Shown: one piece after another, positions 2-10,460 of the stretch
Layout: each line of letters starts with the position of its first letter
How positions within the stretch are numbered: position 1 is the first letter of the stretch
Source of the DNA: Deltaproteobacteria bacterium RIFOXYA12_FULL_61_11
Lineage (GTDB): Bacteria > Bdellovibrionota_F > JAHFAK01 > YA12-FULL-61-11
Assembly: GCA_001799195.1 (NCBI GenBank)
Contig: MGSU01000008.1
Location: 1-22,017 of the forward strand
Direction: 5' to 3'
Length of the DNA stretch: 22,017 nt
Program-made: the position numbers and the translations under genes
Notes under the pieces: generated by a model
What the model was told of the DNA's origin: nothing
Databases searched by the model: none
Seen by the model: only the letters and a program-made list of their open reading frames with translations

Positions 2-1966
2 AGAGCCGGCAAGAGGGTTGTCGAGAGTCGCGCCCTACTCCGCGGCCTGAACGACACTCTCCACCAGCGGATCGAGAAGGGAGAACGGGTCGAGGCCGAG
101 TTGCTCAATTACATGCTCATGGCCAATGCTTCCAGTGATTACATTACGTTGATCGATCGCCACTACTGCTACTGTGCGGTCAACGAGGCCTACCTCAAAG
201 CCAGACGTAAAAGTCACGGGGACATTCTCGGCCACACCCTGGTCGAAGTTTGGGGCGAGCAGATCTTCAACGAAGTCCTCAAAACCAACGTAGACATCGC
301 CCTGACCGGGTCGATCGTTCATTATGAATCCCTGTTCGGGTTCACCCCGACCGGGTCCCGTTTCATGGATGTGACCTTCTATCCCTATCGGAATGAGCAC
401 GGTGAGGTGAGCCATGTAGTCATAACCTCCCACGACATTACGAAGGTCAAACGTGCCGAGGAAGAGATTCGCAAGCTCTTCCACGCCGTTGAGCACAGTC
501 CCATGGGAATTCTCATTGCCGATGCTTTTGGGACCATCAAGTACGTCAATCCCGAATTCCTCAGTCAACGCGGGGAAAAACCCGGTAACCTGCTCGGAGA
601 TTTTTGGCGGGATACCCTGGTGGGCCGAGAGAACAAGTATCTCTTCGAGGAAATATGGGCCGTAATCGCTACTGGCCGCGAATGGATCGGAGAGTTGAGC
701 ATCTCTCGCTCGGACGGGCTGCCGGTCTGGTATAGCCTTACCATCACACCTATCCTCGGAGAAGACACAAGAGTTACTGATTTCATAGCCTTGCGTGAGG
801 ACATCACCGAACAGGTCGAGGCTGAACAGGCCCGCGACGATATGCACCAACAATTGTTGCAATCGGCAAAATTGGCAACTTTGGGAGAACTCAGCGCGGG
901 TATTGCCCACGAACTCAACAATGTGCTGACCTTGTTATTGGGCCATGCAGAAGAGCTCGAGCATGCTCTCGAACAGGAGAACCTCGACAGGAGCACGCTG
1001 CGTAAGTCCTCGGCCAATATCCTGGAGGTGGCCGAGCGGATGAACAAGATCGCCACCCAGATGAGGAAATCGGCGCATGGGCCCATGCCCGAATTCGTCA
1101 CCCACGACGTGCGTCAGATCCTCGAGGACACCCTCTTCTTGATGAACAAAAAAATCAGGAATGCGGGGGTTACCGTACAAAGTGACTTCGCCCCAGAGCT
1201 GCCTCCCGTCAATTGCGATCCGGGGCAGATAGAACAAGTAGTCCTCAACATCTTGACCAACGCTCTGGCGGCTATGGAAGGAAGGAACGGGGGCTTGATA
1301 AGGATCACCACTGCAGTTGGTGCCGACAGAGGGGTAGATATTGCAGTATGGAACGATGGCCCTCTCATCCCCCCCGAGGTTCTCGAACATCTTTTCGAGC
1401 CGTTCTTCACCACGAAACCCCGCGGCATCGGTACCGGTCTGGGTATGTCGATCGCGGCGACGATCATGCGTAATCACGGGGGGCGTCTCGAGGCCAAGAG
1501 CGCGATCGATCTGGGTACCAGCTTCACGCTCTCCTTCCCAGCCGTGAGCGGAGCCAGTCTCAATCGCGCTCCTTTCCTCGTGGTGCTTGGACCGGATCAA
1601 GACGAGCGCGCCGAGTTGGCCCGCCGGATCGCCGGATACGGCTATCGCGTAGAAGTCGTGGAAGACCAATACGGGTTGACCGCGCTCTGCGCAGATAGTT
1701 CTCCGGCGTTGTTGTTCTGCTTCGAGGAGGCTCTCGACGATGAGACTTGCACCCTGGTGCAGAACCTCCAGCACCGTTGTACCGATCTTCCGATCGTCCT
1801 GCTGCAGCACCGTTCCAGTGGGGCCTGTCCTCCCTTCGCCCGTCTCGAGTTCCACGCTACGCTGCGCCGTCCGCTGAGCGCTCTGATGCTCAGGAAACTG
1901 CTCAAGGGTCTGGGCTCTGGAAACAGGACCGGGACACCTGCCCCCGTGGATCTCGGTTCATGGTGA
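2..1966 (+). CDS. PAS-domain sensor histidine kinase with degenerate C-terminal receiver (5' end outside window)
   Basis: The reading frame is open from base 2, so the true start lies upstream; 654 residues are visible. After a short coiled coil there are two PAS domains (about residues 40-150 and 155-275 of the visible part), then a HisKA H-box (AGIAHELNN, His303), an N-box (NILTNA, Asn416 and Asn420) and an HATPase domain with G boxes (FFTTKPRGIGTGLGMSI). It should autophosphorylate on His303 in response to a ligand sensed by the PAS domains; no membrane segment is visible. The G1 box reads NDGPL instead of the usual DxGxG. Residues about 523-640 look like a receiver domain but the phosphoacceptor position is Phe (FCFEE), so it is probably a pseudo-receiver. 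The gene overlaps the patatin gene by 7 nt. The histidine kinase call is secure; the signal is unknown. Confidence 0.93.
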   Translation, partial: RAGKRVVESRALLRGLNDTLHQRIEKGERVEAELLNYMLMANASSDYITLIDRHYCYCAVNEAYLKARRKSHGDILGHTLVEVWGEQIFNEVLKTNVDIALTGSIVHYESLFGFTPTGSRFMDVTFYPYRNEHGEVSHVVITSHDITKVKRAEEEIRKLFHAVEHSPMGILIADAFGTIKYVNPEFLSQRGEKPGNLLGDFWRDTLVGRENKYLFEEIWAVIATGREWIGELSISRSDGLPVWYSLTITPILGEDTRVTDFIALREDITEQVEAEQARDDMHQQLLQSAKLATLGELSAGIAHELNNVLTLLLGHAEELEHALEQENLDRSTLRKSSANILEVAERMNKIATQMRKSAHGPMPEFVTHDVRQILEDTLFLMNKKIRNAGVTVQSDFAPELPPVNCDPGQIEQVVLNILTNALAAMEGRNGGLIRITTAVGADRGVDIAVWNDGPLIPPEVLEHLFEPFFTTKPRGIGTGLGMSIAATIMRNHGGRLEAKSAIDLGTSFTLSFPAVSGASLNRAPFLVVLGPDQDERAELARRIAGYGYRVEVVEDQYGLTALCADSSPALLFCFEEALDDETCTLVQNLQHRCTDLPIVLLQHRSSGACPPFARLEFHATLRRPLSALMLRKLLKGLGSGNRTGTPAPVDLGSW

Positions 1967-3441
1967 CCCTACTCTATTTTGTCGAGGACAAGTATCTGGA
2001 ACAAAGCCGAGCCTGGCTGATGTCCAGCAGCACAACCTCGAGCGATACTTCATCTTTGCAATCCCCAATACGCCTCGTCGCCGCAGGCCGAGAGGTCACC
2101 ATCTACGTGGTCACGACCAGGGAAGAGGCGCACCGACATCTCCTCACGGTACCGGTCGATCTCCTCGTACTCGAAGAACACTCCGCCCTCGACGAAACTA
2201 TTTGTTTCCGCTTTCTGAAAGGGTTGCATTATCTCCCCGATCCGGACCAAGCGTTTCCCCTCAACCGGGTTGCCGTGGTCCTTTGCGGCAAAGAACATCT
2301 CGTCGACCGGTCCTTCCGCTACGGACGCTTCAACGTGGCAAAGGTGCTGGCGAAACCGCGGGCCGTGGAAACCTTGATTACCCTCCTCGCTCCCTTGGTT
2401 GAGAACCAGGAGAGCGGCAAGCTTGCCCTCTGCCTCGGCGGTGGAGGACTGGAGGGGTTGCTCTACGAACTCGGAGTGTGCAAGGCTCTGGATGACGTGC
2501 TGGTCGGACGTTCTCTCCACCGCTTCGATATCTTCTGCGGCATAAGTGCCGGTTCCATCCTCGCCACGTTCTTGGCCTTCGGTTTCGACCTCGACGATAT
2601 CCTGGACGCCTTCGAGGGTGGGGGCCAAGGTAGCCTCGACCCGATCACCCCTGCCGTCCTTTATGACCCCGCGATCCTGGATTGGATGTTGCACGCCGTG
2701 GCGGTACTTGCCAAGACCCGTTCGCTGAAACCCAAAGCCCTCCTCTCCACTTTCCTCCGCATGAGTCCGAGAGGCCTCTTCAAGGGAGCCAGGTTGCGAC
2801 AGTATCTCTCGCTCCAATTCAAGAACCGTGGGTTATCCGAGGATTTCGCCGCTGCCAACCGGGAACTCTATATCGGCGCGACCAATCAAGACACCTCCGA
2901 ACACGTGGTATTCGGTGCCGAGGGTTTTCGCGATGTCCCCGTCTCTCGAGCGATAAGGGCTTCGTGCGCCCTGACCCCCTTCTATTTACCTGAACGGATC
3001 GGAGCTACCTGGTACGCTGATGGCCAGATCACACGCACGGCCAACTTCCATTGGGCCATGGAGCGCGGGGCCAAACTCGTCATCGTGGTCAATCCGCTCC
3101 GACCGATTGAATCGGGCGAACCAGGGTATGTCCACGGGAAGGGGGGACTGTTCGAGGCCTTGCAGTCCCTCAAGGCCCTGATCAACACCCGCTTCCTCCA
3201 TGCCTTGAACCACCAGATTGAGCGTTGTGCCGAGCAGGATGTCTTGCTCTTCCAACCCTACCGTGAGGACATGAAACTGATGAGCGGTTCACCGATGAAA
3301 TACAGCATTCGTCGGGAAATCATCAGGCTCGCCTATAACGCAGTGATCCGAAAATTGAACACCGACTTCGAGTTCTATCGCTCGACCCTCAACCGTCATG
3401 GGCTCGAACTGCGTCGCGGGCGCGTCCTCGAGACGAGCTGA
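1960..3441 (+). CDS. Patatin-like phospholipase with N-terminal pseudo-receiver domain
   Basis: The chosen ATG at 1960 overlaps the kinase stop by 7 nt; in-frame starts farther upstream lie deep inside the kinase. The product is 493 aa. Residues about 35-145 resemble a receiver domain: the phosphoacceptor Asp position is Glu72 (DLLVLEEH) and a Lys-Pro pair (LAKP) is kept near the end. The patatin domain follows: glycine-rich oxyanion loop at 160-166 (GGGGLEG), nucleophile Ser196 in GISAGS, and catalytic Asp354 in ADGQ. Patatins are Ser-Asp dyad lipid acyl hydrolases, usually acting on membrane phospholipids. The oxyanion loop has Glu165 where Arg or Lys is common. No signal peptide is seen, so it should act at the cytoplasmic face. 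It sits between two sensor kinases, which suggests control by protein-protein contact or phosphosignalling (inference). Confidence 0.9.
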   Translation: MVTLLYFVEDKYLEQSRAWLMSSSTTSSDTSSLQSPIRLVAAGREVTIYVVTTREEAHRHLLTVPVDLLVLEEHSALDETICFRFLKGLHYLPDPDQAFPLNRVAVVLCGKEHLVDRSFRYGRFNVAKVLAKPRAVETLITLLAPLVENQESGKLALCLGGGGLEGLLYELGVCKALDDVLVGRSLHRFDIFCGISAGSILATFLAFGFDLDDILDAFEGGGQGSLDPITPAVLYDPAILDWMLHAVAVLAKTRSLKPKALLSTFLRMSPRGLFKGARLRQYLSLQFKNRGLSEDFAAANRELYIGATNQDTSEHVVFGAEGFRDVPVSRAIRASCALTPFYLPERIGATWYADGQITRTANFHWAMERGAKLVIVVNPLRPIESGEPGYVHGKGGLFEALQSLKALINTRFLHALNHQIERCAEQDVLLFQPYREDMKLMSGSPMKYSIRREIIRLAYNAVIRKLNTDFEFYRSTLNRHGLELRRGRVLETS

Positions 3442-3445
3442 ACTC

Positions 3446-6268
3446 ATGAAACCAAGGTTTGCCGAGGAACATCAGGACCGTGGTCGAGTCTTGGTCGTCT
3501 ACAACGGTCCAGAAATCGATGCCGCGTTGCAGGTCGTGCTGCCCCGGCTCGAGGTCGAACTGATTCCCCTTTCCCTGCAAGACCTCAGCCCCGAATTGGT
3601 CAAGAAGTATGCTCCGGACTTGATTCTCCTCGACCTGCAACGAGTCGATCTCCAACTGAAAGACCAACTCGTGGCCCTCGCAAGGGAACAACAGCGTCAT
3701 GCGGTCCTGGTCCTGGCACGAGCTCAACACCGTCGCTTCATTGAGAGTTTCGTTCGACGTCGGGTGACCAAGATCCATTATCTCGGGCGTGGGCCGGACG
3801 AAGAGTTGCTCGACAAGGCCCGCAATCTCTTGAGTTTGGCCCAATGCCGTACCCAGCTTCAGAGGCAGGCCCGGGTTCGCGATATCCTCGAGGAGGTGAT
3901 TCGCTTACTCACCCGAAACCTGGAGCCGCGTGAAGCCATCTTCTGCGTTGTCGCCTATCTCGCCCGGGCTCTCGATATGGTTCGCTGTTCCTTGGTCCGG
4001 CTCGATCCCTCCGGAGATCGGGGTATGGTCCTGGCCAGCAGCGAGAGCTTCGAATTGCGCGATTTCGTTCTCTTACTCTCACGGTACCCCGAGATCGAGT
4101 ACTGTATTCTCGAACGAAAACCCCTCATCATCCGCAATATAGAGCAACATCGCGTACTCCTGGGGGTACGTGGCCGTTTACCCAAGGGCAAGTTCCGCTC
4201 CTTGCTGGTGGTTCCGGTCCTGCATCGCGAGACGGTGATCGGCGTGTTGCACTGCAAAGCCCGACAAGCCCACCACCCCCTCGGGGAACAACTCGAAGCC
4301 CTCCTCGGCCTTGTCGCCGGGATACTCGGCCAAGCCCTTCACAACGAAGTCACCCCACGGCCCCAGGATCAACCCTCGGTCGGCGATCCAGGGCTGGTAT
4401 TGGCAGAGTTCGGAGGGGCAATCAAACACGTTCTCAATCAGCCCTTGACCGCTATCCTCGGCTATTCCAACCTGTTGTCACGTCGGCTCGGCGAGAACGA
4501 TCCAGCCTTTCATCCTGTCCGCGTGATCCAGAACGAAGCGATGCGCATGGCCGAACTGGTGCGTAACATTGGAGAAACCCGAGAGTATCGCACCGAACAG
4601 TATGTAGGAGCCCACTCCATTGTCTCTATCCCCGGTGACCCTTCCGCTCACTTGCAAGAGCCTTTCTCAACCAATACCTTCCTGGCCCATCTGACCGCTC
4701 TCGAAGAAGAGCTCGAACACTGTTTTCAGCCACTCGCCGTGCTCGAGACCTTCGGGCGACACCTGCGCCACGAACTCCCTCCTCATCGCCAGGCCTTCTG
4801 GATACGCGACCTCAGGAATGATAATCTCCTCCCGATCCTCGCAGATGAAGGTCTACCTCTCTTCGGTTTGGGGGTTTTACACCCAGGACAGGGTCTTCTC
4901 GGTAGCGAGTTGTTCGCAGATCGACTCATCCGTCTCCAGTCACCCCTGCGCCACGAGGAGTTGGTCACCCGGGGGTCGACCTTCCCGGGTCTCGAGGATT
5001 GGCCCGGCATGCTCCTCCCGCTGAGCGTCAGCCGCTCGAACCTTGCCCTGCTCCTCCTGCTCTTCGAAGCCCCGGTCCTACCGAGCCCTGAGCAGGAGAG
5101 TCTCTTGCTGGCCATGGGGCGCCGAGCGGCTCTCGAACTGCGGAACCTCCGCTTGTTCGAACGCCTGCGTCAGGATCAGCTCGTCCGAGAGCGACTCCTA
5201 GAACATGCTCCCTCCCCTGCCTTGACCATAGATCTGAACGGGAAACTCAGTGAGGTCAATCCTCGCTTCGTCGAACTCGTACTCCGAAGCAGGCAAGAAT
5301 TGTTGGGATCCAACCTCACCGAACTGGTGGTCATCGAAGACAGAGGTTTGGTCGAGAGCCTGCTCGAACAGGCTCTCGAGGGACGTCCAACCGAGGGATT
5401 TACACTCCGTTTTTCTGCGCCGGAACAAGAAATTGCCATCGAATTCAATACATTCACAACATTCCTGGAGAAAAATCGTCCTGAGAGCGTGCTCCTGCTC
5501 GGACGCGATCTCAGCCACGAACGGTTGCTCGAGGCTTCACTCCGCCAACAGGAGAAGTTGAGCACGGTCGGCATGCTCGCAGCGAGTATTGTCCATGAAC
5601 TGAACAACCCCTTGGCCACGGTCCGTCTCAATAATGATTTTCTCATCCGCAAGGTGGAGTTGGGGCATAGAGAGCCCACGACCGACGTGCGCCATAACCA
5701 TGCGATCGCCGAGAGCGTGGAACGGATGCAGCGCTACACCTCAGGTTTGATGGCCTTCGTCAGACCCGCTGCCCCATTCGCCCGCGTGGCCCTTGATCTC
5801 AATGACGTGGTCCGAGACACTCTCGTGTTCACCGAAGCCTATGTGCGAGGAGCCGGCGCTCGCCTGGAAACCTCGTTAAGCGATGGCCTGAAACCAATAC
5901 GCGGTATCAAAGACCAACTCCAGCAGCTCTTCATCAACCTCATCGCAAATGCGGCCCAAGCCATGCATGGTCCGAATGGGTGCATTACTGTGCGCACCGC
6001 AGCCATCGATGCGAGCTTCGTCGGCATCGAGGTCAACGATGACGGACCCGGTATGGATCAGGAACACCTAGCCAGTATTTTCAAGCCCTTCTTTACCACG
6101 AAACCCGCGGGGAGAGGAACTGGTCTAGGACTCAGTATCGTCGAACGGATCGTGCGAGAGCACGAGGGCACGATCGAGGTCGGCAGCGAACCGGGCAAGG
6201 GGACGAGTTTTCGCATCGCGTTCCCGGCCATCGGAGAAGTCCGCCAAGGAGGAATACCAACATCGTGA
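3446..6268 (+). CDS. Multi-domain sensor histidine kinase (REC-like, GAF, HisKA-like, GAF, PAS, HisKA, HATPase)
   Basis: The ATG at 3446 lies 4 nt after the patatin stop, giving 940 aa; an alternative ATG at 3398 would overlap patatin by 44 nt and is less likely. Residues about 10-125 are receiver-like: Asp63 (PDLILLDL) is kept, but the acidic pair is YN and the conserved Lys-Pro is absent. A GAF domain spans about 150-300. Residues about 320-385 look like a HisKA helix pair (His328 in KHVLNQPLTAILGY) with no ATPase directly behind it. A second GAF-like region (about 410-590), a PAS domain (about 595-700), a complete HisKA (His717 in IVHELNNPL) and an HATPase follow, with G1 box DDGPG (Asp865) and G2 box GRGTGLGLSIVERIV. 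It has no transmembrane segment. It ends in a 4-nt overlap with the PBP1A gene. Confidence 0.93.
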   Translation: MKPRFAEEHQDRGRVLVVYNGPEIDAALQVVLPRLEVELIPLSLQDLSPELVKKYAPDLILLDLQRVDLQLKDQLVALAREQQRHAVLVLARAQHRRFIESFVRRRVTKIHYLGRGPDEELLDKARNLLSLAQCRTQLQRQARVRDILEEVIRLLTRNLEPREAIFCVVAYLARALDMVRCSLVRLDPSGDRGMVLASSESFELRDFVLLLSRYPEIEYCILERKPLIIRNIEQHRVLLGVRGRLPKGKFRSLLVVPVLHRETVIGVLHCKARQAHHPLGEQLEALLGLVAGILGQALHNEVTPRPQDQPSVGDPGLVLAEFGGAIKHVLNQPLTAILGYSNLLSRRLGENDPAFHPVRVIQNEAMRMAELVRNIGETREYRTEQYVGAHSIVSIPGDPSAHLQEPFSTNTFLAHLTALEEELEHCFQPLAVLETFGRHLRHELPPHRQAFWIRDLRNDNLLPILADEGLPLFGLGVLHPGQGLLGSELFADRLIRLQSPLRHEELVTRGSTFPGLEDWPGMLLPLSVSRSNLALLLLLFEAPVLPSPEQESLLLAMGRRAALELRNLRLFERLRQDQLVRERLLEHAPSPALTIDLNGKLSEVNPRFVELVLRSRQELLGSNLTELVVIEDRGLVESLLEQALEGRPTEGFTLRFSAPEQEIAIEFNTFTTFLEKNRPESVLLLGRDLSHERLLEASLRQQEKLSTVGMLAASIVHELNNPLATVRLNNDFLIRKVELGHREPTTDVRHNHAIAESVERMQRYTSGLMAFVRPAAPFARVALDLNDVVRDTLVFTEAYVRGAGARLETSLSDGLKPIRGIKDQLQQLFINLIANAAQAMHGPNGCITVRTAAIDASFVGIEVNDDGPGMDQEHLASIFKPFFTTKPAGRGTGLGLSIVERIVREHEGTIEVGSEPGKGTSFRIAFPAIGEVRQGGIPTS
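6246..6252 (+). promoter_or_regulatory. Shine-Dalgarno AAGGAGG for the PBP1A gene
   Basis: A perfect AAGGAGG lies inside the end of the upstream kinase gene, 12 nt before GTG 6265 and 21 nt before the next in-frame ATG (6274). The spacing favours the GTG start, which overlaps the kinase stop as GTGA. Confidence 0.7.
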
Positions 6269-8745
6269 AGATCATGCTGTTCGTGGGTATGACCATTCTT
6301 GGATTTGCCTTCGCGACCGCGATAGGGATCGTGATCTATTTCCAGGGGGACCTGCCCTCTATCGAAAAACTCAAGGCCTATGATCCTCCACTGGTCACCG
6401 AGGTCTATTCCTCGACCTATGAGTTGATCGGCAAATTCTACAACGAAGAACGCTATGTGCTCCCCCTCTCCTCGGTACCTGACCACGTGCTCGAAGCCGT
6501 GCTCGCGGCCGAGGACGCCAATTTCTTCTCTCACCACGGTATCGATTTCCTCTCCATCGTCAGAGCTGCCCTGAAGAACCTCTACTCGGGAGGTATTAAG
6601 CAGGGAGCCAGCACCATTACGCAACAGGTCGCGAAAACCTTCTTGCTCGGTTCGCAACGCACCTTCACCCGTAAGGTAAGGGAAATGTTGCTCTCTTATC
6701 GGATCGAAAAAGAACTGAACAAACATGAGATCCTCTTCCTCTATCTGAACCAGATCTATCTCGGCAATGGGGCCTATGGTTTGGAAGCCGCTGCACGCAA
6801 GTATTTCGGCAAACACCTCGCCGAGCTCACCGTAGCCGAAGCTGCGCTCTTGGCGGGACTGCCGCGCGCCCCCTCCAAATATGCCCCCACGACCAATCCG
6901 CACATGGCCCGTTCGCGGCAACTCTATGTCCTGGAACAGATGCTCGGCCAGGGAATGCTCGATCGAAAGACCTACGAGCGCGCCAAGGCGGAGAAGTTGG
7001 TCTACGCCCCACCGGTCGATGTGAACCTGGAGAAGACCCCCTATTTCACCGAAATGGTCAGGCGCTACCTGGTGGAGCACTACGGTAACGAGAATCTCCT
7101 GACCAAGGGATACCAGGTTTTCACCACGGTCGACGTCGGTCTCGATCGCCTGGCCAGACAAGCCCTTCGCGGTGGTTTGAGGGAGTTGGACAAACGACAG
7201 GGTTGGAGGGGCGCGCTCGAGAACCTCCCGGACCAGGACGCCCTACAAGCCTTTCTGGCCAAACCCCAGACGCCCGACGAGGACGGCTTTCTCCGAGCTG
7301 TCGTCCTCTCCGTCGACGACGACGCCGGGCGTGCCGAGCTGGGCCTGGGTACTCAACGCGGTACCATCCTACTCGAGGATTGCGCCTGGGCTCGTCCCTT
7401 CAACGTGAACACCAATTACCGCAACCATTTGCTGACGAAAGTCTCTCAGGCATTGAGCCCTGGGAAGGTGATCCTGGTGCGTCGAATCGAACGCGAGGGG
7501 TGTACCGATTGTTATCAGTTGGAACAAGAACCGCTGGTCCAGGGGGCTCTCTTCTCTGTCTCGCAGCGATCCGGCTTCGTTCGGGCCATGGTTGGAGGTT
7601 ATGACTTCCGCCTCAGCGAATTCGATCGTTCCCGTCAGGCCAGGCGCCAACCGGGTTCTGCCTTCAAACCCCTTATCTATGCTGCGGCTCTGGACAAGGG
7701 TTACACCCCCTCGACCCTCATCCTGGATACCCCGGTGGTCTTCGATGATTATGAGAAGACCGGCCTGTGGAAGCCGGAGAACGACGGAGCCAATTTCCGC
7801 GGGGATACCACCTTCCGAGAAGCGCTGGTGCACAGCTTGAATATTCCCACGATCAAGATCGTCAACGACATCGGCTTGAAATACATTCTGGCCTACCTGC
7901 GACGGCTCGGCCTTCGGGCGGAGCTCAACCAGGATCTCTCCACAGCGCTCGGTTCGAGCGTACTCACCATCGAAGAGGTATGCCGTCTTTATAGCGTCTT
8001 TGCCAATATGGGCAAGAATGTGCCCTTCGTGTTCATCACCGAAATTCGAGAGGCCACGGGTGCGATCCTCGAGAAGAACACCTTTGTCGAGGCCGATGCT
8101 TCCCTTGCCGAACAGCTTACCCGTATCGAGGATTATGCTCCCCAGCTCGATGTGGAAACACAACCCCCCCCTCTGGAAGAAACCGAAACAGAACCCGCTG
8201 CAGAGGATCCCAATGATCCGGGACTGAATCCCTTCGGCCACCTCAGTGCGGGCAGAGTTCTGAGTTCGGAGACGGCTTACATGATCACCCATCTCCTCAA
8301 AGGTGTCGTCCAATACGGGACAGGCTTCAGAGCCCGAATAGCCGAGCGTCCCATTGCGGGGAAGACCGGCACCACAAATGATTACCTCGATGCCTGGTTC
8401 GCCGGTTACTCGCCTCAATTGACCACCGTGGTCTGGACGGGCTTCGACGAGAAGAGGAGTCTCGGGGTCAACGAGACAGGCTCTCAAGCGGCCGTACCGA
8501 TCTGGCATGCCTACATGGATGAAGCCCTGCGCAACCGACCCCGCCCGGATTTCGCCGTGCCGAGTTCCAACCTGGTGTTCGTCAAGGTCGATCGCAAGAC
8601 CGGTCTGCTGGCAAGCGCATCCTCCCAAAAGACTATTTACGAGGTTTTCCTGCGTGGCACCGAGCCCACCCAGCAGCATGTGGAGAAGCAACGGCGGGCT
8701 ACCGGTAATATCCTCTTCGACGACGAGGTTCCACCCGAACTCTGA
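6265..8745 (+). CDS. mrcA: Penicillin-binding protein 1A (bifunctional transglycosylase/transpeptidase)
   Basis: This class A PBP polymerises lipid II into glycan strands and cross-links the peptides in the periplasm. It has 826 aa. A single N-terminal membrane anchor (about 5-28) is followed by a GT51 glycosyltransferase domain with catalytic Glu83 in EDANFFSHHG and the GASTITQQ motif. A linker/OB-like region (about 290-430) precedes the transpeptidase domain, with Ser465 in SAFK, Ser524 in SLN and Lys700 in KTGTTND. All active-site motifs are intact, so it should be functional. Residues about 607-672 hold a Pro/Glu-rich insertion between SxN and KTG. The GTG start overlaps the sensor kinase stop by 4 nt and has a strong ribosome binding site, so it belongs to the kinase-patatin unit. 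The family is certain; the mrcA/ponA symbol is by analogy. Confidence 0.95.
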   Translation: MKIMLFVGMTILGFAFATAIGIVIYFQGDLPSIEKLKAYDPPLVTEVYSSTYELIGKFYNEERYVLPLSSVPDHVLEAVLAAEDANFFSHHGIDFLSIVRAALKNLYSGGIKQGASTITQQVAKTFLLGSQRTFTRKVREMLLSYRIEKELNKHEILFLYLNQIYLGNGAYGLEAAARKYFGKHLAELTVAEAALLAGLPRAPSKYAPTTNPHMARSRQLYVLEQMLGQGMLDRKTYERAKAEKLVYAPPVDVNLEKTPYFTEMVRRYLVEHYGNENLLTKGYQVFTTVDVGLDRLARQALRGGLRELDKRQGWRGALENLPDQDALQAFLAKPQTPDEDGFLRAVVLSVDDDAGRAELGLGTQRGTILLEDCAWARPFNVNTNYRNHLLTKVSQALSPGKVILVRRIEREGCTDCYQLEQEPLVQGALFSVSQRSGFVRAMVGGYDFRLSEFDRSRQARRQPGSAFKPLIYAAALDKGYTPSTLILDTPVVFDDYEKTGLWKPENDGANFRGDTTFREALVHSLNIPTIKIVNDIGLKYILAYLRRLGLRAELNQDLSTALGSSVLTIEEVCRLYSVFANMGKNVPFVFITEIREATGAILEKNTFVEADASLAEQLTRIEDYAPQLDVETQPPPLEETETEPAAEDPNDPGLNPFGHLSAGRVLSSETAYMITHLLKGVVQYGTGFRARIAERPIAGKTGTTNDYLDAWFAGYSPQLTTVVWTGFDEKRSLGVNETGSQAAVPIWHAYMDEALRNRPRPDFAVPSSNLVFVKVDRKTGLLASASSQKTIYEVFLRGTEPTQQHVEKQRRATGNILFDDEVPPEL

Positions 8746-8788
8746 AACGGGCTGGGCCGAGGAGCGCCACTGGATCAGGCTCTTCCGC

Positions 8789-8807
8789 GGAATAATGTGG
8801 AATTATG
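8789..8807 (+). repeat. Short A/T-rich direct repeat upstream of promoter
   Basis: GGAATAATG (8789-8797) recurs as GGAATTATG (8799-8807), matching at 8 of 9 positions with a 10-bp period, just upstream of a candidate -35 box. One helical turn of spacing would suit a regulator site or an UP-like element. It may also be chance in an A/T-rich patch. Confidence 0.35.
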
Positions 8808-8816
8808 AAAAAGTGC

Positions 8817-8845
8817 TTGAAATCTCCAGGCAGTGGGCCGATTAT
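8817..8845 (+). promoter_or_regulatory. Candidate sigma70 promoter for the MBL-fold hydrolase and lipB genes
   Basis: TTGAAA (8817-8822) matches the -35 consensus at 5 of 6 positions. It is separated by exactly 17 nt from GATTAT (8840-8845), which matches the -10 consensus at 4 of 6. The predicted transcript start near 8852 leaves a short leader before GTG 8880. It lies in the only sizeable gap (134 nt) of the plus-strand block. This is a pattern match only. Confidence 0.4.
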
Positions 8846-8879
8846 CGACAGATTGAGCTAGGACACGGCAGATAGCACG

Positions 8880-9716
8880 GTGAAGAGTACGTTCAAGGTC
8901 ACCTTCTGGGGGGTTCGCGGCAGCATCCCGGTGCCGGGGCCGCAGACCACGAAGTACGGTGGGAACACCCCCTGCGTCGAGGTTCGCTGCGCCGATCAAC
9001 TTTTCGTCTTCGATACCGGCAGTGGGGTCGTTTCCCTCGGACGAAAATTGCTGAGTGAAGGTCCCCTGCTCGGTCATATCTTCTATACGCACTTCCATTG
9101 GGATCATATCCAGGGTTTCCCTTTCTTCGCCCCCTTGTTCAATCCGGCCAACCAGTTCCATCTCTATGGCCAACACAACACGCCTCACACCCTGGAAAAG
9201 GCGCTCGGCGGCCAAATGGAGCAACCGGTTTTTCCCATCACCATCAAACACCTACCGGCGACGTTGCACTTCCACCAGGTCTGTGAGTCAGTTCCTCTCG
9301 AAATCGGACCCGTCAAGATATCCCCCTTCAAGCTCAATCACCCCAGTCCATGTCTAGGGTATCGGCTCGACTTCGAAGGTCGCAGCATGGTGTATGGAGC
9401 TGATAACGAACACGGAGCCGACGGTCTCCACCAGGTCTATCTCGACCATGCCCGGGATGCGGACCTGGTCATCTTCGATGCCGCCTATACCGACGAGGAA
9501 TACACCGGGCACAAAGGTCCACCGCGTAAGAACTGGGGACATTCGACCGCAACCCATGCCTTGGATTTACTGCAGCACCCTGGAGCCAAGCGTGTCGCCC
9601 TCTTCCATCACGACTATCTCCGCACTGACCAGGAATTGACCGCGATCGAGACGAACATACAGCAACGCCACCCCGAGATCTTCTGCGCTCGGGAAGGTAT
9701 GACCCTGGAACTCTGA
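8880..9716 (+). CDS. Metallo-beta-lactamase-fold metal-dependent hydrolase
   Basis: The 278-aa product has the metal-binding HxHxDH motif (THFHWDHIQGF; His71, His73, Asp75, His76). Further likely ligands are a His near residue 152 (NHPSP), an Asp in GADNEH or FDAAYTDEEY, and the late FHHDY. The opening GVRGSIPVPG followed by YGGNT is typical of the RNase Z/PhnP-like branch of bacterial MBL hydrolases, which includes phosphodiesterases for small phosphate esters or cyclic nucleotides. The actual substrate cannot be told from sequence. No signal peptide is visible, so it should be cytoplasmic. The GTG start at 8880 puts the conserved opening right at the N-terminus; the ribosome binding site is weak. 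The gene lies 12 nt before lipB and probably shares its transcript. Confidence 0.9.
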   Translation: MKSTFKVTFWGVRGSIPVPGPQTTKYGGNTPCVEVRCADQLFVFDTGSGVVSLGRKLLSEGPLLGHIFYTHFHWDHIQGFPFFAPLFNPANQFHLYGQHNTPHTLEKALGGQMEQPVFPITIKHLPATLHFHQVCESVPLEIGPVKISPFKLNHPSPCLGYRLDFEGRSMVYGADNEHGADGLHQVYLDHARDADLVIFDAAYTDEEYTGHKGPPRKNWGHSTATHALDLLQHPGAKRVALFHHDYLRTDQELTAIETNIQQRHPEIFCAREGMTLEL

Positions 9717-9728
9717 AGCTAACCGCCC

Positions 9729-10460
9729 GTGCCCGAAAGATCAGTCCACCTCCTCCGCCTCGGCCCCCTGCCCTATGGGAAGGCCTTGGAATTGCAGTGG
9801 AAGCTCCATACCGAGGTCGTCCAGACTCCACCCTGTCTTGGGACCCTCCTCTTCACCTCGCACGCTCCACCGGTGATCACCTTCGGCCACAGCCATGGAC
9901 CGGAACATTTACTGGTCGAAGGGACTCGGTTACGGGAACAGGGTATTGAACTCCAGACAGTCGATCGCGGCGGTTCAATCACCTTGCACTCCCCCGGTCA
10001 ACTCGTCCTGTATCCCATCCTCCATCTCGAGCGGCTCGGTTGTCGGTTACGGCACTTCGTCGCAACGCTCGAAGAGGTGATCATCGAGGTCCTTGCCCTT
10101 CACGGCCTGACCGCTGGACGGCATCCCGATCATCCGATCGGCGTGTGGGTCGATGGCCGCAAGATCTGTTCCCTAGGGCTGCAACTGGTCCACGGAGTCA
10201 CCTTGCACGGCCTAGCCCTCAACGTCACCAATGACCTGTCTCTCTTCGATTTGATACAACCGTGCGGTCTCAGCGCCAGAGGGGTGATGACCAGCGTGGG
10301 CGAATTACTCGGGGTCCGAGCACCCTCGCCGTCATGTTTGGAAGACGAACTCGCCAGGGCCTTGGCTGAACATTTCGAGCTCGTCTTCATCAACAGGTGG
10401 TTCGACGATCCGACCGACGGGGGCAGGGAAAGAGCACTCAGCGAGGATCGCGGTTCTTGA
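9729..10460 (+). CDS. lipB: Octanoyltransferase LipB
   Basis: LipB transfers octanoate from acyl carrier protein to the lipoyl domains of 2-oxoacid dehydrogenases and GcvH, the first step of protein lipoylation in the cytoplasm. The 243-aa length is normal. Family motifs are RGGSITLHSPGQ (80-91), Lys145 in GRKICSLG, VTLHGLALNV, and the catalytic Cys179 in IQPCGL followed by VMTSV. Both catalytic residues, Cys179 and Lys145, are present. The first motif departs slightly from the common form: Leu-His-Ser replaces Tyr-His-Gly. GTG 9729 is the start; no lipA lies next to it. The 3' end overlaps the convergent DUF4412-like gene by 23 bp. Confidence 0.95.
   Translation: MPERSVHLLRLGPLPYGKALELQWKLHTEVVQTPPCLGTLLFTSHAPPVITFGHSHGPEHLLVEGTRLREQGIELQTVDRGGSITLHSPGQLVLYPILHLERLGCRLRHFVATLEEVIIEVLALHGLTAGRHPDHPIGVWVDGRKICSLGLQLVHGVTLHGLALNVTNDLSLFDLIQPCGLSARGVMTSVGELLGVRAPSPSCLEDELARALAEHFELVFINRWFDDPTDGGRERALSEDRGS

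Follow-up and report, generated by a model that had tools for sequence, protein, structure and literature searches.

Why should a patatin-type lipase be encoded between two histidine kinases, with a domain resembling a response-regulator receiver in each of the three proteins? The question is raised by a stretch of DNA from Deltaproteobacteria bacterium RIFOXYA12_FULL_61_11. The window, meaning the whole stretch analyzed, is the first 22,017 nucleotides (nt) of the 22,137-nt contig MGSU01000008.1 in the 4.64-Mb assembly GCA_001799195.1. The three genes, like all window features given below, lie on the forward (+) strand and encode a hybrid histidine kinase (HK1, 2..1966), a receiver-like–patatin fusion of 493 amino acids (aa; 1960..3441) and a second histidine kinase (HK3, 3446..6268). 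The analysis placed the fusion in a family of the same two-part architecture that is conserved in other phyla, and its cooperation with the flanking kinases is a tentative reading.

Receiver-like domains in three adjoining genes

The patatin start codon (ATG at 1960) precedes the HK1 stop codon (1964-1966), giving a 7-nt overlap, and a 4-nt gap separates the patatin stop codon (3439-3441) from the HK3 ATG (3446). An earlier note on this DNA had described this packing, and its coordinates and spacing were exact. HK1, whose 5' end is missing as the contig begins inside the gene, comprised PAS-PAS-HisKA-HATPase followed by a C-terminal pseudo-receiver (Pfam PAS_4, HisKA and HATPase_c). HK3 was arranged as pseudo-receiver-GAF-HisKA (without HATPase), a further stretch, and PAS-HisKA-HATPase, with Pfam matches for GAF, PAS, HisKA and HATPase.

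The Pfam family PF00072 (Response_reg) did not match any of the three isolated receiver-like domains, even at E values up to 10. We compared them using hhalign with a receiver profile built from 22 receivers out of the fetched loci, with 150 shuffles as controls. The HK1 C-terminus (1568..1936), which also aligned with hybrid-kinase receivers, matched with P 1.3e-4 and the HK3 N-terminus (3482..3844), as a single sequence, with P 2.9e-5; 0/150 shuffles were as good in either case. Together with two homologues, the HK3 N-terminus reached P 1.5e-11. These two domains outscored all other tested stretches of the three proteins and of 13 neighbor proteins. The patatin N-terminus (1960..2403) was not significant as a single sequence (P 0.048), and with its homologues gave P 8e-5 to 1.4e-4, the best of 150 column shuffles being 0.003 to 0.011.

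AlphaFold2 modeled the patatin N-terminus in (beta-alpha)5 order, with predicted local distance difference test (pLDDT) scores of 36-78 for residues 1-110 and lower up to residue 148; the mean for the patatin was 45. The HK1 C-terminal domain showed a partial (beta-alpha)5 order at a mean pLDDT of 49, a poor model whose use was limited to element order and fold ranking. In a PDB fold search (VIA-align), the best receiver match of the patatin N-terminus had Z 9.7 over ~110 residues, and that of the HK1 domain Z 9.0, its matches being almost all receivers. The receiver folds that the earlier note had proposed for all three proteins are thus supported by the profiles (for the patatin, with homologues) and, for HK1 and the patatin, by the models and fold search.

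The residue assignments of that note were also right. HK1 has no Asp at the phospho-position in the alignment, with Q602 at the T position and R623 at the K position. HK3 retains D63 and lacks the acidic pair (N20) and Lys (R115), with A91 at the T position. The patatin has Glu72 at the phospho-site and C109 at the T position. Its description as decayed holds for Glu72 and not for the acidic pair E9/D10 and Lys132-Pro133, which are still present; the patatin receiver is therefore less decayed than had been implied.

A conserved receiver-like–patatin family

Homologues of the fusion were found as one copy per genome in 48/58 genomes of one other phylum (35/39 good genomes), a few of the 48 matches covering the patatin part only. 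Beyond this phylum, at least four further groups had the same two-part architecture; it occurred in two Deltaproteobacteria bins, one of which has a second, paralogous copy, in 3/3 available genomes of another phylum, in 2/2 of a third, and in single further genomes. A search of genome contigs for related loci gave two loci. In the window's own phylum, where two genomes were compared, the sister genome lacked the patatin.

The catalytic domain of the window patatin (2428..3048) matched PF01734 with 90 bits (E 2.9e-25) and contains GGGG at residues 160-163, the nucleophile Ser196 in GISAG and Asp354 in ADGQ, and so carries the Ser/Asp catalytic dyad. Ser196 and Asp354 were invariant in 41/41 aligned family sequences. 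From these motifs, the protein is predicted to cleave membrane phospholipid.

The receiver part of the family was also conserved, at D67, D72 (40/41), E73 (40/41), R74 (39/41), R103 (41/41) and P133 (40/41). The acidic pair and Lys were not conserved in the 40 homologues. The sole exception at D72 among the 41 sequences was the window copy, which reads E72-E73-H74 (2173..2181) and thus also has H74 in place of R74. In more distant groups the D-x-R pattern was mostly retained at both its D and its R, in an alignment from which one row (L055, translated in the wrong frame) was excluded. Because D-E-R, R103 and P133 are near-invariant in homologues that have neither acidic pair nor Lys, we take the patatin N-terminus to be a true, selected pseudo-receiver family, probably with a non-phosphorylation role, and not a product of random decay.

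In another phylum (three genomes; L019, L055 and L056), the receiver-like N-terminus of the patatin differs in being shorter and in having no conserved Asp, and the gene adjoins one of the OmpA family. One further patatin gene in the window's genome (locus L029, contig C211) has no receiver-like domain and adjoins a transposase-like open reading frame (ORF).

No account of a receiver–patatin fusion was found in the searched papers on patatin together with receivers or response regulators. Pseudo-receivers, patatins and hybrid kinases are each known; judged by the papers searched, the conserved pseudo-receiver–patatin family is apparently undescribed and unannotated.

Flanking kinases and proposed control of the lipase

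The window genome has ~47 kinase-like matches in 4.6 Mb, so kinases on both flanks of a given gene would be unlikely by chance (~1e-4, a rough post hoc estimate). Downstream, the HK3 stop codon overlaps by 4 nt a gene for a PBP1A-family peptidoglycan synthase (6265..8745; TIGR02074, 581 bits above the cut-off), whose listed start is GTG at 6265, and the two genes are likely to share an operon. A metallo-hydrolase gene and then lipB follow on the same strand; the genes after HK3 (6265-10460) possibly extend the locus into a putative envelope-related operon of six genes. No Rfam elements, and no promoter or terminator signals above shuffles, were found at the locus.

Our tentative proposal is that HK1, the patatin and HK3 form one translationally coupled unit encoding a signalling-controlled phospholipase. 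The overlaps indicate that translation of the three would be coupled. The patatin pseudo-receiver would not switch by Asp phosphorylation, because the phospho-site is Glu here and the homologues lack the acidic pair and Lys. Its activity would most likely be set via the conserved beta3-beta5 face, by contact with a protein or small ligand, and the co-made HK1 and HK3 are the likeliest partners here. Each of the two kinases would probably be regulated in cis by its own pseudo-receiver, a mode reported for ShkA and CikA. The system would act by hydrolyzing membrane lipid, perhaps in time with PBP1A-driven wall synthesis. Inferred in this scheme are that the patatin is an active lipase, that it contacts its partners, which way control runs and that PBP1A is linked to it. 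A wider proposal, which we consider improbable, is lipid signalling derived from two-component systems without phosphorylation of an effector Asp, in which kinases steer a phospholipase through pseudo-receiver contacts and the beta3 D-E-R site (E-E-H here) acts as a ligand or partner switch.

Several observations weigh against the proposed kinase–lipase unit. Among 31 homologous loci (11 from five or more groups and 20 from the large phylum with 48 matches; neighbors judged from mechanical ORFs), a kinase directly adjoined the patatin in none (0/31). The kinase–patatin–kinase triplet was seen in the window genome only, and the recurrence in other genomes that would follow from the earlier note was not found. 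Two of these loci (L124 and L125) end at contig ends on one side, so that one flank was testable in each. No kinase at all was found in most of the fetched patatin neighborhoods. One locus from a genome with a very large number of kinases (L087) has three within ~6 kb, the same-strand one lying beyond two genes. HK1 has H303, the N box and the G2 box, and the full H/N/G1/G2 set is broken at G1, where the alignment showed N451-D-G-P-L455 (1352..1366) for D-x-G-x-G; the motif is intact in HK3 and six other aligned kinases, HK1 alone reading NDGPL. Because of this replacement, HK1 may amount to a partial or full pseudo-kinase, with weak or no ATP binding. Both AlphaFold2 models are of low confidence, and the receiver of HK3 was assigned by profile comparison.

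The explanation that survives best beside the proposed unit, and one that is quite possible though short of probable, is that the patatin is a conserved stand-alone envelope or lipid enzyme under its own N-terminal domain, flanked by kinases through a rearrangement in this lineage. The lack of recurrence of the gene order favors this independent lipase. So does the near-universal, single-copy presence of the family in the large phylum, where its usual partner is a DsbD-like gene overlapping the patatin in 16/23 compared loci, with SfsA and GST genes nearby (L163-L182 and L127), and neither there nor in the other groups does a kinase adjoin it. It accounts less well for the tight spacing on both sides of the patatin, for the pseudo-receivers that both flanking kinases carry too, and for the deviation of the window copy at precisely D72 and R74, which would fit a change in its regulation. 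Coupled translation, double flanking and the altered E72/H74 favor kinase–lipase cooperation. We regard cooperation and an independent lipase with accidental neighbors as about equally likely; cooperation was put first since it explains the whole locus and yields tests, and our confidence in it is not above that in the independent lipase. The dedicated signalling complex proposed in the earlier note thus has tight packing in its favor, seen in one of the two genomes compared from this phylum, and no gene-order conservation; such a complex at this locus is possible, without support from conservation.

An ordinary two-component switch, in which a kinase phosphorylates the patatin receiver and turns the lipase on, is very improbable. 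The kinase motifs of HK3 are all intact (H717, the N box, DDGPG and GTGLGL, the N, G1 and G2 boxes of its HATPase at 5909..6226 being undamaged), and E9/D10 and K132 are present in the patatin receiver. However, direct Asp phosphorylation of the window patatin is unlikely because Glu72 leaves no Asp to phosphorylate, and where homologues do bear the Asp, neither the acidic pair nor Lys is present. Least likely of all is an anti-phage effector, a patatin triggered by the flanking kinases to kill infected cells: the patatin fold matches CapE and there is weak PADLOC/NCBIfam similarity to phospholipases of cyclic oligonucleotide-based antiphage signalling systems (CBASS), but this similarity covers the catalytic core only and stays far under the family cut-offs (39 vs 400 and 31 vs 200 bits), so that a CBASS/anti-phage phospholipase identity was rejected, PADLOC gives no match for HK1, HK3 or PBP1A, and a near-universal, single-copy family in one phylum is unlike defence genes.

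Further features were noted in HK3 and around the homologues. Between GAF and PAS, HK3 has an extra HisKA (His328; 4394..4621; PF00512, E 2.3e-7) with no HATPase after it, which closes with the conserved tail YRTEQYVG...IVSI. The same module and tail occurred in L046, L088 (64-804) and L183-L186, with a tail consensus of Y[KRE]T..Y.G...I[IV][DS][IL] across these HisKA modules. In Deltaproteobacteria bins they form the C-terminal end of several PAS proteins, which are 132-458 aa long, and they are also internal to a 1653-aa kinase of another genome (G041), which starts with a degenerate receiver and GAF. This HATPase-less HisKA could serve by itself as a phospho-acceptor or docking module. In one family of the large phylum (L126, L163 and L164), the patatin comes after the flagellar fliGHI genes. 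After the second pseudo-receiver–patatin in a Deltaproteobacteria bin (L087:5326-9544) come genes for a 206-aa protein and an AAA ATPase, overlapping at their ends, and this cluster adjoins divergent CheB-CheR and hybrid-kinase genes.

Comparison with known systems

In E. coli, the patatin gene rssA lies beside the response-regulator gene rssB; the two encode separate proteins, and RssB works as an adaptor in the turnover of RpoS. PorX has an ordinary receiver. PorX-type response regulators (PDB 7pva, from the fold search) join a receiver to a hydrolase-type output, as in the patatin fusion, but the enzyme fold of PorX differs from that of patatin. The patatin phospholipases CapE, CapV and PlpD share the patatin fold and catalytic dyad with the window patatin, but have no receiver domain, and CapE is activated by a cyclic nucleotide.

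The hybrid histidine kinases ShkA and CikA resemble HK1 and HK3 as kinases bearing a pseudo-receiver, which in ShkA and CikA is ligand- or contact-controlled and governs autophosphorylation in cis (PMC7010744, PMC12632262). They differ from the present locus in that the systems, as described in the available parts of these sources, have no lipase gene; in the same parts, ShkA also has a true receiver, whereas HK1 has none in its available stretch. Common replacements in bacterial pseudo-receivers (PsR/atypical response regulators) are Glu for D, Asn for DD2, Ala for T and Arg for K (PMC12632262), and the three domains show such replacements. In contrast to the pseudo-receivers of that 2025 review, those of the present locus are missed by PF00072, and the words patatin and lipase are absent from its text. 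The review also cautions that the idea of Glu as a phosphomimetic has failed in some cases, and calls the switching of bacterial pseudo-receivers a mystery (PMC12632262). A near-universal single-copy pseudo-receiver joined to an easily measured enzyme would make this question of switching testable, and lipid hydrolysis would become a further output for domains of the receiver type.
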